IMG/VR virus record: IMGVR_UViG_3300036768_000456
Coordinates: 1-40,420 of that record
DNA: 40,420 bases
Source of the DNA: a virus
Strand: one strand, 5' to 3'
Made by a program: the position numbers and the translations under genes. Below the pieces are notes generated by a model. That model was not told where the DNA came from. It did not search any database and saw only the letters and a list, made by a program, of their open reading frames with translations. This document shows positions 8,183 through 33,702 of the stretch, in pieces; the first letter of the stretch is position 1, and the number at the start of each line of letters is the position of its first letter.

Positions 8183-9077
8183 AGATTATAAGATTTTTGA
8201 ATGTGTAACTGGGTCTAGATTGTATGGCACGTCTCTCCCTCAATCTGATTGGGATTATCGAGGAGTTTCAATTCCTCCGCTGACAGTTTTGCTAGACCCG
8301 TTTATGAAGTTTAATGTCCAAGATTCGGGATTTGAAGAACATGATAGGGTAATATATAATCTCTCAAAGTTTGTTGAATTATGTGTCCGAGCAAACCCGA
8401 ATATAGTAGAATTACTTTTTGTCCCTGAAGAATTTACAACTTTTTCCACTAAAAAGTGGGAACAGATTCGCAGAAATGCTTCACTGTTTCTAAGTAAAAA
8501 AGTAAAATACACCTTCACAGGATACGCATTCAGCCAATTAAATGCTTTGCGTCGTCATCGTGAATGGTTCTTGAATCCTCCTCTAAAAAAGCCGGAGCGT
8601 GAAGATTTTGGTTTGACCAGCGTCCCTACGGTTAGTATGGCTTGGCTAAATAGTTTAAAGGATAGTATAAATTACTCCTTGTTGCGCCCGGAAATAGTGG
8701 ATGAAGTTAGTCGTGAACGAGAATATAGAGATGCCAAAAAGAAATGGGACAATTATATTCAGTGGAAAACGACAAGAAATCCAAAGCGTAGAGGGACTGA
8801 GGAGGCATATGGATACGACACAAAATATGCCTCTCACATTTTTAGACTAATGTTGGAAGGGAAAGAACTTCTTTTAGAAGAAAGAATTACTTTTCCTTTG
8901 CGGGAAGCGGAGTTTGTTTTGGCAGTAAAACGCGGAGAGTTTACTTACGACCAAATAGAAAACATGGCCTCTGAACTAGAAGCATCTTTTGAAATTTGGT
9001 ACGAGGAAAGCAATCTTCCAAAGTCTCCGAACATAAACGCCATAAAAGATTTATATTATTCTCTAATATTGGAGTAA
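8151..9077 (+). CDS. nucleotidyltransferase, COG3541-like (Pol beta superfamily)
   Basis: A 308-residue protein with the Pol beta signature GSRLYGTSLPQSDWDYRG: Gly-Ser at 21-22 and Asp33 and Asp35 as metal ligands. This and the RANPNIVELLF segment match predicted nucleotidyltransferases of COG3541 (YcgL type). They transfer a nucleotide to an unknown acceptor; no substrate is visible here. It starts at GTG 8151 inside the SLOG gene. The pairing of a nucleotidyltransferase with a nucleotide-sensing SLOG protein suggests a shared nucleotide-related function, which is inference. Confidence 0.8.
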   Translation: MPTLIDAKTIEDYKIFECVTGSRLYGTSLPQSDWDYRGVSIPPLTVLLDPFMKFNVQDSGFEEHDRVIYNLSKFVELCVRANPNIVELLFVPEEFTTFSTKKWEQIRRNASLFLSKKVKYTFTGYAFSQLNALRRHREWFLNPPLKKPEREDFGLTSVPTVSMAWLNSLKDSINYSLLRPEIVDEVSREREYRDAKKKWDNYIQWKTTRNPKRRGTEEAYGYDTKYASHIFRLMLEGKELLLEERITFPLREAEFVLAVKRGEFTYDQIENMASELEASFEIWYEESNLPKSPNINAIKDLYYSLILE

Positions 9078-9080
9078 ACA

Positions 9081-9278
9081 TTGACACCTTGGGAACAATT
9101 TATAAATACATTATCATATGAAAAATTAATGGGGGCAACTCCGTTAGTTTTGTTAGAATGGTTTTATACTTGGCTTAAAGAAAATAAGAGCATTCGCATA
9201 CCTGACGAGCCTAAGCGAGAAGGATGCACATGCAACGCCTATCGGTTAGAAAACTTTGGTTGTAAATGTGGAGCGTGA
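9081..9278 (+). CDS. small protein with C-terminal Cys cluster (65 aa)
   Basis: It starts at TTG 9081 with GGAG 6 nt upstream. Residues 1-40 are helical and Trp-rich. The last 20 residues contain CTCNAYRLENFGCKCG, two CxC pairs that could bind zinc. It ends in TGA (9276-9278) just before the integrase promoter. No family recognised. Confidence 0.5.
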   Translation: MTPWEQFINTLSYEKLMGATPLVLLEWFYTWLKENKSIRIPDEPKREGCTCNAYRLENFGCKCGA

Positions 9279-9306
9279 ATGGTCTTTTCCCCAATAAAAC
9301 TTCCTC

Positions 9307-9335
9307 TTGACAGAAAATAGCAATTATGCTATAAT
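9307..9335 (+). promoter_or_regulatory. consensus promoter of the integrase gene
   Basis: TTGACA (9307-9312), a 17-nt spacer and TATAAT (9330-9335), a perfect sigma70-type consensus. The -10 runs into ATAATATTAT, a 10-bp palindrome. The integrase ATG is 22 nt downstream. This makes the integrase independently transcribed within the early block. Confidence 0.88.
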
Positions 9336-9356
9336 ATTATCAGAAAAGAGGATACT

Positions 9357-14908: not shown

Positions 14909-14937
14909 TTGACAAAATAAATATTCTAGAGTATAAT
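14909..14937 (+). promoter_or_regulatory. tRNA-cluster promoter 1
   Basis: TTGACA (14909-14914), a 17-nt spacer and TATAAT (14932-14937), a perfect consensus. It lies 84 nt upstream of a second promoter, and both face the tRNA genes. Confidence 0.85.
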
Positions 14938-14992: not shown

Positions 14993-15021
14993 TTGACAAA
15001 CAAAAAATCTTGTGGTATACT
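14993..15021 (+). promoter_or_regulatory. tRNA-cluster promoter 2
   Basis: TTGACA (14993-14998), a 17-nt spacer and TATACT (15016-15021), with GTGG before the -10 as at 662. The first tRNA begins 19 nt downstream. Tandem strong promoters suggest high expression of the stable RNAs. Confidence 0.85.
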
Positions 15022-15039
15022 TATATAAGAATTAAACGT

Positions 15040-15110
15040 AGGCATTTGGTATGGTGGTATTATGGCGGTCTCCAAGCCCGTAGACATGGGTTCAATTCCT
15101 CTAGTGCCTG
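15040..15110 (+). tRNA. tRNA-Trp (CCA anticodon), imperfect stems
   Basis: The acceptor 15040-15046 pairs with 15103-15109 (7 bp, one G-U); the discriminator is G15110. The D arm has a 3-bp stem with a GGTGGTA loop. The anticodon loop CTCCAAG puts CCA at 34-36. The anticodon stem GCGGT/CCCGT has a U31-C39 mismatch and a G-U at 27-43. The T arm has the loop TTCAATT with one U-C mismatch. CCA is not encoded. A phage tRNA-Trp is unusual because UGG is the only standard Trp codon; see the finding on in-frame TGA. A degraded tRNA is the alternative. Confidence 0.6.
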
Positions 15111-15116
15111 CAATAT

Positions 15117-15190
15117 ATTGGAATAGTTCAGCCCGGTAGAACACTTACTTTTTGAGTAAGGAGTTGCATGTTCAAATCCTGTTTCCCATA
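15117..15190 (+). tRNA. tRNA-Lys (TTT anticodon)
   Basis: The acceptor 15117-15123 pairs with 15183-15189 with one U-C mismatch at 3-70; the discriminator is A. The D arm is GTTC/GAAC with an AGCCCGGTA loop. The anticodon stem CTTAC/GTAAG is perfect, and the loop TTTTTGA places TTT at 34-36. The T loop is TTCAAAT, with one mismatch in the stem. CCA is not encoded. AAA is a very common codon in this AT-rich genome. Confidence 0.8.
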
Positions 15191-15205
15191 CAAACTCTTC
15201 ATAAG

Positions 15206-15234
15206 CCTGTAAATCCTAATAAATCACTTACAGG
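15206..15234 (+). ncRNA. hairpin between tRNA-Lys and tRNA-Ile
   Basis: CCTGTAA (15206-15212) pairs with TTACAGG (15228-15234) around a 15-nt loop and is followed by AAAAA. A second small stem, GTCG/CGAC, occurs at 15253-15266. They may be tRNA-processing spacers or part of a larger RNA. Confidence 0.4.
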
Positions 15235-15269
15235 AAAAAGGTAGGATGGCAGTCGGAGAGACGACACTT

Positions 15270-15342
15270 GGGAGAGTAGCAAAATGGTGAATGCACCCGG
15301 CTTATACCCGGCAATGTGAGGGTTCGACTCCCTCCTTTCCCA
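15270..15342 (+). tRNA. tRNA-Ile (TAT anticodon)
   Basis: The acceptor GGGAGAG/CTTTCCC is complete with one G-U; the discriminator is A15342. The D stem is GCA/TGC. The anticodon loop CTTATAC gives TAT at 34-36, reading AUA. The anticodon stem has four good pairs and a C-C mismatch at 27-43. The T arm GAGGG-TTCGACT-CCCTC is perfect. CCA is not encoded. AUA is frequent in this phage and rare in many hosts, which would explain carrying this tRNA. Confidence 0.85.
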
Positions 15343-15343
15343 C

Positions 15344-15650
15344 CTAGGTCTACATACATTAAGGGTTCGAACCCTAATGTAGATACAAGGAGTGATGTAT
15401 GTAGACTAGCATCGGCTGTGAAACTGGCGCAATGATACACCCCGCCTCTGCCTATGATGCCCATACAAGTCCTTTGAGCATTAGGTTACATGGGAGGCAG
15501 AAAGGTAGTCCGAAAGGGTTTCCAGCCAGTCAACAAGTTTCGTTGCGGTCAGACGCGGACGCCTCATCGTCTGGGTTGTATATGTAACCGCGAAACAGGA
15601 AAAGGTTAGCCGAATACTAATCAGGTAATCGTGTAACTACCAGATTGATT
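15344..15650 (+). ncRNA. unidentified structured RNA in the tRNA cluster
   Basis: About 300 nt with no convincing coding frame and visibly higher GC than its surroundings. Helices seen: 15348-15359 with 15395-15406 (12 bp, extended by CTAG/CTAG with one bulge); 15362-15375, a perfect palindrome AGGGTTCGAACCCT like a tRNA T arm; 15448-15453 with 15495-15500 and 15460-15464 with 15490-15494; CC-GAAA-GG at 15510-15517; 15537-15542 with 15591-15596; 15550-15555 with 15568-15573; GGTT/AACC at 15574-15589; and GTAATC/GATTAC near the 3' end. I do not recognise it as tmRNA, RNase P RNA or a group I intron. It may be a phage-type ornate RNA, a class often found beside tRNAs. Confidence 0.55.
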
Positions 15651-15671
15651 ACATCATTGGAGTTTCGTTGC

Positions 15672-16127
15672 ATGGGATATTATAATTTTTCGCAGGATTA
15701 CGCTGTAGCCAGAGAGACCGAAAAAGAAATTGAAAATATTTTAGAAAATAGAGGTTATACGGTTCTTGAATTCTGTAACGATAAACGGTACGATTTATTG
15801 TTAGAGAAAAATGGGCGTAAGGTTGCGGTAGAAATAAAGGAAGACTTTACTTGTGAAAAGACTGGCAATGTAGGCTTAGAATTTGGATGTAGAGGAAAGC
15901 CGTCCGGCATTAGTACAACAGAAGCAGACTTCTATATTTACAAAGTGCATACTCCAAAAGGAGTAATTGTAGTTTCAATATCTACTAAAACTTTGCGTAA
16001 AATGATTGAAGATTGTCAGTACCACCGAATTGTTTCTGGCGGCGATGAAGGAAGTAATTCAAGAAACTATTTGTTCAGACTCGATAAGTTTTTGCAATAT
16101 TCAACTATAATTCAATGTAAATTTTAA
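15672..16127 (+). CDS. PD-(D/E)XK-like nuclease
   Basis: A 151-residue protein. RYDLLLEKNGRKVAVEIKED contains the Asp...ExK core of PD-(D/E)XK nucleases, with an N-terminal helix (ETEKEIENILENRGY) before it and KPSGISTTEADFYIY after it, a segment seen in resolvase- and restriction-like members. I choose ATG 15672 (GGAG 10 nt upstream) over an in-frame ATG at 15645, which lacks an SD and lies in the structured RNA. It lies between tRNA-Ile and tRNA-Arg. It could be a Holliday-junction or homing-type nuclease, or a modification-dependent enzyme. Confidence 0.7.
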   Translation: MGYYNFSQDYAVARETEKEIENILENRGYTVLEFCNDKRYDLLLEKNGRKVAVEIKEDFTCEKTGNVGLEFGCRGKPSGISTTEADFYIYKVHTPKGVIVVSISTKTLRKMIEDCQYHRIVSGGDEGSNSRNYLFRLDKFLQYSTIIQCKF

Positions 16128-16129
16128 AT

Positions 16130-16201
16130 GCCCTTATAGGCTAACGGATAAACCGAGAACCTTCTAAGTTCGGATTGGTGGTTCGAATCCACCTAGGGGC
16201 A
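16130..16201 (+). tRNA. tRNA-Arg (TCT anticodon)
   Basis: The acceptor GCCCTTA/TAGGGGC pairs fully with one U-G; the discriminator is A16201. The D arm is weak but has an AACGGATA loop. The anticodon loop CTTCTAA gives TCT at 34-36, and its stem has four pairs plus an A-G mismatch at 27-43. The T arm GGTGG-TTCGAAT-CCACC is perfect. CCA is not encoded. It begins 2 nt after the nuclease stop. It reads AGA/AGG, the main Arg codons of this phage. Confidence 0.88.
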
Positions 16202-16226
16202 CTAAAAAATTATTTAGGAGAATCAT

Positions 16227-20812: not shown

Positions 20813-22093
20813 ATGAATAAAAAAATAAAATATATACTTATAGGAGTAGGGGCATTAGCCCTTATTTTGTTTATATTGTTTGGTCAATCGTATACTATAA
20901 ACGAGAGCGAGAACACAAGATTTAACGGAGTAATGCTTGCAACTCCAACAATCAATACAACATATAACAATGGCTTGGTTGTTACTCAAAGCAACATAAC
21001 CATTCAAAACATAGAAGTTACAAATCCGAACGGGGTATGTTTGGACATACGCGGAAACAATGTTGTTGTAGATAACGTATATGTTCATGATTGTAAAGGT
21101 CACGGGATTGTTGTTTCTTCCCAAAATGTAACTGTTAGAAATTCAATCGTTACTATGGCCGTAAACAGGGGATTGAATTGTTCTTCTAATACCCAATGGG
21201 GGTCTGGCATAAAGGGCTACATTGGGGCAGTAAACCTAAACGTAAATAACGTAAATGTTTATAATACCTGCGGAGAAGGGATTGCCTTCACAAGGGTTGC
21301 GGGGGGTTCCATAACAAATTCTACGGTGTGGGACACGTATAGTGTTAATATATACGTGGATAATAGTTATAACATTCTCGTAGAAGGGAATCTTTCCACT
21401 TCGACTGGAAACGCTACTTACAAACGTGACGGAAACAATGCGAGAGGCATCGCGCTAGGGAAAGAATATTACTCTGGCTGGAACGGGCAACTGCACGATA
21501 TTACAATTAGAAGAAATATTGTGTATAATGGTGTAGACGGAATTCGAATATTTCAAGCGGTAGCGGGAGTTACACCTTCCGGTTGTGTAAATTGTTTAAT
21601 TGAATATAATACTGTAATTTCTGGAAGCGGGAGTACGGGGCGTGCGCTTCAAATTTACGGAGATTCTACAAACAGCAATGTTGTTGGGAGATATAATATT
21701 CTTTACAGTTCCCCTTACGCCAATTCCATGAATGGTGTAACCTTTGTAAATAACTATGTTGGCTCCCCGATTTCTGCCTTTGTTTGGAATTTATACGACA
21801 CATTCATTGCGGCGTCCCCTGTATGCAATTATGGAGCAATTCCTTGTGCGGGAACACATACCCCAACAGAAACATATACCCCGTCAAATACCCTGACTCC
21901 AACGCTTACCTTCACAATTACAAACACTCCGACAGTTACCCCCACGGGAACGCTCTTTACTTCAACGCCTTCATTTACTCCAACATTCACGTCAACTTCG
22001 ACGAATACTCCCGCTTTCACATCTACCCTTACGCCAAGTCCTATTCCAACCTTTTGTGAAGATACGTTGCATTTTCACATATGTACACGGTAA
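20813..22093 (+). CDS. exported right-handed beta-helix protein with Thr/Pro tail
   Basis: A 426-residue protein. Residues 6-25 are a signal or anchor helix (YILIGVGALALILFILFG). Residues 40-345 form a right-handed parallel beta-helix with repeating short strands (NITIQNIEV, NVVVDNVYVHD, NVTVRNSIV), as in pectate-lyase-like or glycan-active proteins. Residues about 345-415 are an extended Thr/Pro/Ser linker (TPTFTSTSTNTP), then a short Cys-containing end. No catalytic residues are obvious. Thr/Pro tails of this type are common on exported Chloroflexota proteins. It lies in the replication operon, so it is probably made early and changes or binds host surface glycans. This is inference. Confidence 0.75.
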   Translation: MNKKIKYILIGVGALALILFILFGQSYTINESENTRFNGVMLATPTINTTYNNGLVVTQSNITIQNIEVTNPNGVCLDIRGNNVVVDNVYVHDCKGHGIVVSSQNVTVRNSIVTMAVNRGLNCSSNTQWGSGIKGYIGAVNLNVNNVNVYNTCGEGIAFTRVAGGSITNSTVWDTYSVNIYVDNSYNILVEGNLSTSTGNATYKRDGNNARGIALGKEYYSGWNGQLHDITIRRNIVYNGVDGIRIFQAVAGVTPSGCVNCLIEYNTVISGSGSTGRALQIYGDSTNSNVVGRYNILYSSPYANSMNGVTFVNNYVGSPISAFVWNLYDTFIAASPVCNYGAIPCAGTHTPTETYTPSNTLTPTLTFTITNTPTVTPTGTLFTSTPSFTPTFTSTSTNTPAFTSTLTPSPIPTFCEDTLHFHICTR

Positions 22094-30856: not shown

Positions 30857-31556
30857 AACCGCTTTTGAAAAAGTATCATTTGCACAATGGGTTGAAGATG
30901 CTCATCAGCAAACTCTTTCTGAAATTTCGGAAGACCAGAAGAATTTTTATTGGGAGGAATATAGAAACATAAACCTTCCAAGGCGGGCAACCTCTCATTC
31001 TGCGGGGTATGATATTTTTTCAACGTTTGACTTTGTACTTAGCCCTCAACAAGACATAAAACTACCTCTTGGGTGGAAGATATACCTGAAAGAAGATGAG
31101 TTTTTAATGGTTGTCCCCCGTTCCGGGCTAGGATTTAAATATTATACGCGCCTTGCTAACTCGGTTGGAGTCATTGATTCTGATTATGCGGATAATAAAA
31201 CTAACGAGGGACATTGCTGGATAAAATTTCGGAATGAAGGAAATGTTCCTTTTAGTATCAAGGCGGGAGAAGCAATCGCGCAAGCAATCATTGTCCCTTT
31301 TAGACTGATGGACGATGATACTTATGAAGGCGCTACCAGAGTCGGGGGATTTGGGTCAACAGATATGAAACCAATTAACACATTTATAGAAGATTTGCGT
31401 CGTTTACTAGAAGAGGGGGTAGACGATTTTTGGTGGAAAGTAACAGAAAATGGAAATTTTGATTTAATAAATAGGCTAAGGGAATCGGCAGGATTAAGCC
31501 AAATTCCTGTAGAAAAACTACAAGAAGCGCGTGAATATTGGCGGATTTATGGATAA
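30846..31556 (+). CDS. dut: dUTPase with N- and C-terminal extensions
   Basis: A 236-residue trimeric-type dUTPase with all motifs in order: RATSHSAGYDIFS (about 44-56), PRSGLGFKY, GVIDSDY, GEAIAQAIIVP and RVGGFGST (about 166-173). It hydrolyses dUTP to dUMP. About 40 residues precede motif I and about 60 follow motif V, helical and charged (LRRLLEEGVDDFWWKV), which is long for the family (about 150). The extra tail could bind another protein. It overlaps nrdJ by 11 nt and the oxidoreductase gene by 8 nt. Confidence 0.9.
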   Translation: MKSRTAFEKVSFAQWVEDAHQQTLSEISEDQKNFYWEEYRNINLPRRATSHSAGYDIFSTFDFVLSPQQDIKLPLGWKIYLKEDEFLMVVPRSGLGFKYYTRLANSVGVIDSDYADNKTNEGHCWIKFRNEGNVPFSIKAGEAIAQAIIVPFRLMDDDTYEGATRVGGFGSTDMKPINTFIEDLRRLLEEGVDDFWWKVTENGNFDLINRLRESAGLSQIPVEKLQEAREYWRIYG

Positions 31557-33702
31557 AAGACCGATTTTATTGCTTTTTTTAATTAGTTTTCTGCTTTATG
31601 GATTTTCTCCATTTTCAGGGGTAAAACAGACCCTTGTTGAAGAATATGATGTAATTGTGGTCGGAGCAGGGACAGGGGGCATTTCTGCGGCGATTCAGGC
31701 CGCTAGGACAGGTTCTACAGTTCTTCTTTTAGAAGAAACAGATTGGATTGGCGGGCAGATGACCGCCGCCGCCGTTTCGACAATGGACGGAAATTATGGA
31801 GCATGGGAAAGCGGAATATATAAAGAGTTTATCGATAAAGTTAAACTTTATTATTCTTCTCGTGGAATTAGTATTGGCGGATGCTATTATAGCTCGTCAA
31901 CGTATTGTTTTGAACCACATGTAGCAAGCGCCATATTGTCAGAAATGATTCTTTCTGAATCAAATATAACGCTCAGAAAAACGGAAACTGTAACGTCTGT
32001 TTACACAGTCAATGGCATTATTGAATCCGTTACAACTTTATCGTCGGACGGATACAAAACAATAATTCCAAAAATTGTTATTGACGCAACCGAGTATGGA
32101 GATATAATTTCCATGTCGGGAGCATCCTATAGAATTAGCAATCAAACAAGTGCGGCAATCGGGCAAACGTTGTGCGTTCAAGACATAACATATACGGCAG
32201 TGATGAAAGCCTATGTATCTGGAATACCCGAAGAATTGCGGATAACAACTCCGCCTCCAGGATATACCGCTACAGTAGAAAATGATTTTAAAAGCGTTAT
32301 ATCCAACAAAGGATATACCTATTGGGCTGGATTATACCCTATTACGTGGGACACTCATAACAGTTATAGGTATATTCCAGATTCAAGTTCTACTAGAATT
32401 CCGGGAGCAATAACAAAAACCGAGATAAATTTAGCAAATGATTACGTTCGTGAAAACTTTTTCTCTCCAACACAAAGATTGTCATCTCAATATTTATACG
32501 ATTTAAGTTTCAGGCAAGAATCAAACTGTATGGCAAAACTTAAAACCATTCAGTTCATATATTTTGTTCAAAACGTATTAGGAAGAAGCTGGAGTGTTTC
32601 AACCGATGAAGGATACAATACCGAATACAATCGTCAACATGCCTGTTCAAATATCCCCGCATCTCTGAAAACCATAGAGTATAATCTTCCCGTCATGGCG
32701 TATGTCAGAGAAAGTAAGCGGGGCATAGGGCTTGTAACCGTAACAGGAAAGGACATTTATAGAGTCGGAACCCCTGTTCGCGCACAAAATATGTTTTCCA
32801 GCGGTATAGCCATCGGGAACTATGCTACAGACATACACAACTGCGACATGACTGATAGTTATGACTTGCAGGACACCTTCTCCGATAAGAGCGCAGAAGG
32901 TGGGCCATTTAGAATTCCTTTAGGGGCGTTAATTTCCGTAGACGTATCGAACCTTCTTTTTGCGGAAAAGAATATTTCTGTGTCCCGCCTTGCCAACGGA
33001 GCAACACGACTTCAGCCAATTACAATGTTGACGGGACAAGCGGCAGGAGCGTTGGCGTCAATCTCAATAACTAAAAATATACCGCCTGCGTCTGTTTCAT
33101 ATAAGGAAGTTCAGTTCGAGTTGATAAAATGGAACGACATGATTATTCCGTTTACCGACGGAAACGTTACATATCCCTATTTTAAAGATGTTCAATACAT
33201 GGCGGCTAGAGGGATAATGAATGGATATTCTAATCTGACATTTGGTGTGAATGATTTATTAACAAGAGAACAAATGGCTGTTATCCTTGTTAGGTCTTTC
33301 AATATTCCAATTCCCCCTGCTACAGGAATTTTCTCAGATGTTCCAACATCAAGCGTATATGCGCCGTATATTGAAGCGCTATATAATTCTGGTATAACAA
33401 GCGGATGTTCTGCCTCTCCTAAACTATATTGCCCGCAAGGATATGTAACAAATGAGCAAATGGCAATTTTTTCTCTTAGGGGATGGAAAATGATAAACCC
33501 TTCGATAACAGAAATAAATTCGCAAATTCCTCATTACACAGATGTCCCCCAAGGATATTGGGCATATATCTATATTGAAGGTCTGCAATTTAATGGTGTC
33601 ACACACTACTGCCAAGTAAATAAGTTTTGCCCAACGGCTAATATAAAAAGGGGAGAATCGGCGCATATATTAAATCAAATTCTGTTACACGAAAATCAGT
33701 AA
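31549..33702 (+). CDS. exported FAD-dependent oxidoreductase with SLH domains
   Basis: A protein of about 717 residues. A signal peptide (ILLLFLISFLLYGF) is followed by the FAD-binding Rossmann motif VVGAGTGGISAAIQAA and LLEETDWIGGQMTAAA, typical of the FAD_oxidored (PF12831) family, with a C-terminal FAD segment (RLQPITMLTGQAAGALAS). The last about 170 residues hold three SLH repeats (YFKDVQYMAARGIMNGYSN, FSDVPTSSVYAPYIEAL, YTDVPQGYWAYIYIEGL) that bind cell-wall polymers. I use ATG 31549. The substrate is unknown. It is the last gene before a terminator. Surface anchoring on the host is inferred from the SLH domains. Confidence 0.85.
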   Translation: MDKRPILLLFLISFLLYGFSPFSGVKQTLVEEYDVIVVGAGTGGISAAIQAARTGSTVLLLEETDWIGGQMTAAAVSTMDGNYGAWESGIYKEFIDKVKLYYSSRGISIGGCYYSSSTYCFEPHVASAILSEMILSESNITLRKTETVTSVYTVNGIIESVTTLSSDGYKTIIPKIVIDATEYGDIISMSGASYRISNQTSAAIGQTLCVQDITYTAVMKAYVSGIPEELRITTPPPGYTATVENDFKSVISNKGYTYWAGLYPITWDTHNSYRYIPDSSSTRIPGAITKTEINLANDYVRENFFSPTQRLSSQYLYDLSFRQESNCMAKLKTIQFIYFVQNVLGRSWSVSTDEGYNTEYNRQHACSNIPASLKTIEYNLPVMAYVRESKRGIGLVTVTGKDIYRVGTPVRAQNMFSSGIAIGNYATDIHNCDMTDSYDLQDTFSDKSAEGGPFRIPLGALISVDVSNLLFAEKNISVSRLANGATRLQPITMLTGQAAGALASISITKNIPPASVSYKEVQFELIKWNDMIIPFTDGNVTYPYFKDVQYMAARGIMNGYSNLTFGVNDLLTREQMAVILVRSFNIPIPPATGIFSDVPTSSVYAPYIEALYNSGITSGCSASPKLYCPQGYVTNEQMAIFSLRGWKMINPSITEINSQIPHYTDVPQGYWAYIYIEGLQFNGVTHYCQVNKFCPTANIKRGESAHILNQILLHENQ

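Follow-up and report, generated by a model that had tools for sequence, protein, structure and literature searches.

Within the tRNA operon of the phage studied here lie 327 nucleotides that hold no tRNA, and the locus raises the question of whether this gap encodes an RNA of its own, serves the gene that follows it, or has no function as RNA. The window, by which we mean the whole stretch of DNA analyzed, is a 40.4-kb virus record (40,420 nt; IMGVR_UViG_3300036768_000456). Scans of IMG/VR with the nuclease, ATPase, and polymerase of this phage returned no near relative, the best ATPase match reaching 51 to 52%.

Genomic setting of the gap

The tRNA operon (15040-16202) is encoded on the plus strand and consists of tRNA-Trp(CCA) at 15040-15111, tRNA-Lys(TTT) at 15117-15191, tRNA-Ile(TAT) at 15270-15344, the gap at 15345-15671, a nuclease gene at 15672-16127, and tRNA-Arg(TCT) at 16130-16202. 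ARAGORN ends tRNA-Ile at 15344 and the nuclease ATG lies at 15672, so the gap has, to within one base, the boundaries given in a preliminary description of the locus. The two promoters named there are also present: both are of the sigma-70 type and on the plus strand, at 14909-14937 (12/12) and 14993-15021 (11/12). At the candidate RNA itself we found neither a terminator nor a promoter of its own; a terminator-like site at 15556-15573 was dropped, being within the number expected by chance. The stretch occurs once in its own genome.

The nuclease (151 amino acids) is PD-(D/E)XK-like, with a PDDEXK_5 match below the cut-off and an assignment to phrog_13596, and its ATG is preceded by a Shine-Dalgarno (SD) site, GGAG, at 15659-15662. 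Small nucleases of this type occur in the tRNA clusters of three phages (the window, L015, and L016), and PADLOC gives this one a weak homing-endonuclease match (E 0.02). Elsewhere in the operon, the 78-nt spacer between tRNA-Lys and tRNA-Ile (15192-15269) contains the inverted pair CCTGTAA/TTACAGG and a ACAGGAAAA motif that is repeated at 15595; it folds no better than chance.

The gap is non-coding. Its 51-amino-acid open reading frame scores -0.067 bits per codon, below the 5% quantile of -0.024 for in-frame gene pieces; the reading frames of the gap score like wrong frames, and none has the codon usage of the phage, which bears out the earlier judgment that no convincing frame exists. The GC content, previously noted as higher than in the surroundings, is 0.47 to 0.50, compared to 0.38 for the whole window, and is the maximum among the 300-nt windows sampled. 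The 300-nt windows over the stretch also have the lowest folding energies among those sampled.

Folding of the 5' hairpin and the body

The stretch is probably a structured RNA, in which only the 5' hairpin is significant, the nested fold of the body being no better than that of shuffled sequences. The hairpin (15347-15407, plus strand) has 15 pairs, GGUCUACAUACAUUA/UGAUGUAUGUAGACU, enclosing an inner AGGGU/ACCCU hairpin, with a mean pair probability of 0.976; an alternative 8-bp pairing can be drawn within it (15348-15355/15377-15384). None of 200 shuffles of the first 63 nt (15345-15407) folds as well (z -5.04). For the 264-nt body (15408-15671), z is -0.55, and 52 of 200 shuffles do as well. 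The z of the whole stretch, -2.66, is thus carried by the hairpin. These values divide the preliminary description of a structured RNA of about 300 nt: the non-coding character and the 5' hairpin stand, the body fold is at shuffle level, and the "at least eight helices" drawn in the stretch are not borne out as more than chance. The 12-bp stem reported earlier is found at 15348-15359/15395-15406 and extends to the 15 pairs given above, and the GNRA-type loops are represented by CCGAAAGG, which yields a GAAA loop.

Two manA-type RNAs folded as controls gave z of only -0.94 and -1.73. Nested folding energy therefore has little power for such pseudoknotted RNAs, and the z of the body does not refute a pseudoknotted RNA.

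Read as the minus strand, the body gives a better fold than the plus strand does (z -2.16), as would be expected if the functional RNA were transcribed in that direction. We consider this very improbable, as all nearby promoters scoring 11 or 12 of 12, the tRNAs, and the neighboring genes are on the plus strand, as is the manA-like core described below.

A more serious alternative, although still one that we think fairly unlikely, is that the stretch is a decayed spacer, left over from tRNA genes or an inserted element, that opens with a perfect inverted repeat and does not function as RNA. Phage tRNA clusters often contain degenerate tRNAs, and both the z of the body and GGGTTCGAACCC, which resembles a T-arm, would suit such an origin, as would L095, a relative by its ATPase gene, whose tRNA cluster occupies the same position and contains no such stretch. 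Neither ARAGORN nor Rfam detects a tRNA remnant, however, and the GC content well above that of the genome, the 5' hairpin, and the core match to manA-type RNAs also argue against decay. We did not retain a T-arm or tRNA-like reading of GGGTTCGAACCC, as its stem does not fit.

Searches for known families and homologues

Rfam 15 returned nothing above chance for the stretch, with a 351-nt slice checked down to E 10; this is the outcome of the family search proposed earlier. No tmRNA was found by ARAGORN or Rfam, and neither RNase P nor group I introns are among the Rfam matches, in agreement with the preliminary description; the same holds for GOLLD and ROOL, whose Rfam covariance models have no match in the stretch. 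The list of families considered there was right in that no known family matches, and it left out manA-type RNA, the nearest candidate.

GOLLD and ROOL are phage or prophage RNAs of unknown function near tRNA islands, and GOLLD RNAs frequently run to more than 800 nt (PMC12286853). The window RNA shares this setting with them, and it could in principle be a divergent member of one of these families or of the group I intron, RNase P, or tmRNA families. We regard this as the least probable explanation of all: it gave no match to GOLLD or ROOL in sequence or structure, none of the five families reaches E 10 in Rfam, the length often seen in GOLLD is far from that of the gap, and an intron would require an interrupted gene, whereas all the tRNAs and the nuclease are whole. 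A group I reading with GGUUACAU/AUGUAACC as P3 was likewise dropped, having neither Rfam support nor a split gene.

Homologues of the candidate RNA were sought by blastn (words of 11) in phage and plasmid records, which gave none, and by scanning IMG/VR and GTDB genomes for exact patterns taken from it, which gave nothing, chance matches in coding sequence, or manA-type RNAs. The stretch is thus an interesting candidate that is an orphan by all searches; it falls short of being a demonstrated new class of RNA.

manA-type RNAs in phage tRNA clusters

In IMG/VR, the nuclease has L015 (52%) and L016 (46%) as its nearest relatives, both of which lie in tRNA clusters. On the contig of the closer one (L097), a 179-nt RNA at 9163-9341, directly 5' of tRNA-Asn, matches the Rfam family manA (RF01745) with 50.5 bits (E 4e-12; cut-off 55.2). 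The approximately 280 nt upstream of this RNA and its tRNAs (L097, 8880-9160) contain no convincing gene and match nothing in Rfam; neither they nor the slightly longer stretch 8870-9160 resembles the window RNA.

A 17-base core common to the L097 RNA and the window retrieved 24 IMG/VR stretches. Of these, 16 (14 distinct) are RNAs of manA type, most of them directly adjoining tRNAs; the rest are protein coding or otherwise unrelated. A match to the same core in L066 is coding sequence, and a weak manA match in phage XacN1 lies inside a gene. The manA-type RNAs (L099 to L121 and L097, 9163-9341) lie in tRNA-bearing IMG/VR contigs, and four that were scored against Rfam manA reach 42 to 50 bits, below the cut-off of 55.2. 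In one of them (L108, 167-386), the 5' hairpin is replaced by what appears to be the 5' half of a tRNA-Pro.

Our alignment of these RNAs (A3) has a two-pseudoknot structure with 99.5% of cells paired. In 22 of its pairs both partners change, compared to 5.8 in shuffles, the outer (PK1) and inner (PK2) pseudoknots contributing three each. PK2 joins the P2 loop to the interior of P4 (columns 53-57 with 142-146), and three of its five pairs show compensatory changes. What is directly usable here is a tRNA-cluster subgroup of manA with members below the Rfam cut-off and a covarying second pseudoknot.

Rfam files manA as cis-regulatory. In four cyanophages (P-HM1, P-SSM4, P-SSM2, and S-SSM7; L132 to L135, around 1465-1501), a near-consensus sigma-70 promoter lies directly upstream of the manA RNA, ending 3 to 8 nt before it, and in three of the four it scores 12/12. 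This placement, likewise a directly usable finding, makes manA look like a transcript of its own and not like part of a 5' UTR, and leads away from the cis-regulatory label.

Resemblance of the window RNA to manA

The window shares with the tRNA-cluster subgroup a core of about 30 nt, ACAUGGGAGGCAGAAAGGUAGUCCGAAAGGGU (15488-15519, plus strand), supported by local alignment and a profile HMM, that comprises the P2 3' strand, AAGGU, and AGwCCGAArGGG and includes a GAAA-loop hairpin. Its local alignment to the L097 RNA scores 31, a value not reached in 1,000 shuffles; for L111 and L116, 1 and 4 of 1,000 shuffles score as high, and the profile HMM score is reached by 5 of 2,000. The core was first noticed as a BLAST match with E 5.6 and counts only because of the shared context. 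Alignment to cyanophage manA gave nothing, so the match is limited to one manA subgroup.

Five helices can be drawn on the plus strand in the same order as in manA. The possible PK1 pairs CAAUGAU with AUCAUUG (15430-15436/15653-15659) and emerged from the helix list and a descriptor test. A possible P2 joins UCUGCCU and AGGCAGA (15447-15453/15495-15501) or, alternatively, GCCUCU and GGAGGC (15444-15449/15493-15498), and a possible PK2 joins GGUUACAUG and UAUGUAACC (15484-15492/15581-15589). The candidate P4, GUUUCGU/GCGAAAC (15537-15543/15590-15596), would enclose an inner hairpin, UCAGACG/CGUCUGG (15549-15574); the manA sequence of P-HM1 can likewise accommodate a P4 that holds an inner hairpin next to the PK2 strand. 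The putative P5, GUAAUCG/UGAUUAC (15625-15652), lies directly 5' of the PK1 3' strand; its probability in the nested ensemble is 0.006, so it can exist only in a pseudoknotted model.

When the window is scored with a descriptor requiring PK1, P2, PK2, P4, and P5 in manA order and AC/GU around P2, only 22 of 12,000 shuffles do as well, and it is the best of 978 genome segments, a post hoc result for which the ranges had been loosened with the window sequence in view. True manA RNAs and pieces of Escherichia coli rRNA are less extreme on this descriptor than the window, and we take its indication of a manA-order fold as suggestive only. The nested part of the fold has -87.7 kcal/mol, compared to an optimum of -100.4, a cost of 12.7 that the two pseudoknot helices, whose stacks sum to about -25, could repay before any pseudoknot penalty.

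The differences from manA are considerable. The window RNA is about 150 nt longer, with a long P2 loop and extra hairpins. It has AAAGGU instead of UAAGGU after P2 and lacks the GUGAC-GAAU block before P2. The P3 multiloop of manA (hairpins a and b, and c in cyanophages) is also absent: only 30 nt separate GU at 15505-15506 from P4, and they contain no GGAC partner for GUCC. The Rfam manA covariance model has no match at E ≤ 10 in the 351-nt slice or the whole record, and our own model (R1), run with filters off, has none in the stretch. Given the missing P3 and the lack of a covariance-model match, we do not file the window RNA as manA. The resemblance, which extends to the phage, tRNA-cluster, and non-coding context, is credible but unproven, and a distant kinship is conceivable, although we would sooner doubt it than assert it.

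Leader of the nuclease gene or separate RNA

The position of the structure invites a further explanation, namely, that it is a cis-acting 5' leader whose fold sets the amount of nuclease. The SD and ATG are directly at its 3' end, and PK1 ends at its 3' side on the G that opens the GGAG site (15659). A direct repeat, AGTTTCGTTGC, occurs on the plus strand at 15536-15546 and again between the SD and the ATG (15661-15671). Both copies can pair with GCGAAAC at 15590-15596, which could thus switch between GUUUCGU at 15537-15543 and at 15662-15668 and, in the latter state, cover the stretch between the SD and the ATG. The classification of manA as cis-regulatory would agree with such a role, and riboswitch-type leaders with a pseudoknot at the SD are similar in that the structure ends at the SD of the gene. 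In contrast to those leaders, however, the stretch is not conserved with the nuclease gene and matches no ligand family. The nuclease relatives of XacN1 and L016 start within the preceding gene or right at it and have no such leader, and on L015/L097 a long distance separates the nuclease from the manA-type RNA, which is upstream and adjoins tRNA-Asn. We therefore consider a leader unlikely, if less so than decay.

The explanation that we favor, tentatively and with slightly less than even confidence, is a non-coding RNA of the phage tRNA island, about 330 nt long, that acts in trans. It draws directly on the non-coding character of the stretch, the plus-strand promoters, the tRNA context, and the significant 5' hairpin. 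We also count in its support that manA-type RNAs of other phages similarly abut tRNA genes and that the phage encoding the nearest IMG/VR relative of the nuclease has one in its tRNA cluster, together with the core match, the descriptor score, and the promoters of the cyanophage manA RNAs. The RNA would be transcribed on the plus strand from the tRNA-operon promoters and, as it has no promoter of its own, would likely be released from the tRNA transcript at the tRNA-Ile 3' end, where host maturation of the tRNA may set its 5' end. It would begin with the stable 15-bp hairpin, followed by a body folded through long-range, probably pseudoknotted manA-type pairings, with PK1 outside, PK2 inside, and P2, P4, and P5. 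Such an RNA most likely acts separately, as a tRNA-island RNA, rather than as part of a message.

A bolder proposal, which we hold to be possible but on balance doubtful, is that the stretch represents a so far undescribed class of tRNA-island RNA with a role of its own, manA-type RNA being its only detectable distant kin. If so, its role might be, for example, to guard or replace tRNA function under host defence. GOLLD, ROOL, and manA are already structured RNAs in phage tRNA islands whose job is unknown, and another that escapes all models would indicate that the family libraries are missing some of the RNA classes present in such islands.

A possible tie to tRNA guarding is that an RNA ligase and an RNA-repair-type kinase are encoded in the same genome. 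The ligase (TIGR02306, E 4e-9, below the cut-off) overlaps the Pnkp-type kinase at 746-2930 of the window, and the C-terminal part of the kinase resembles the HD region of CCA nucleotidyltransferases. Taken together, the two resemble a pair for repairing RNA or tRNA, encoded by a phage that brings tRNAs of its own. The window also encodes a beta-helix protein with a TPT-rich tail (20813-22093) and an FAD oxidoreductase with SLH-like repeats (31531-33702), a style that we take to be common in Chloroflexota and that may hint at the host.
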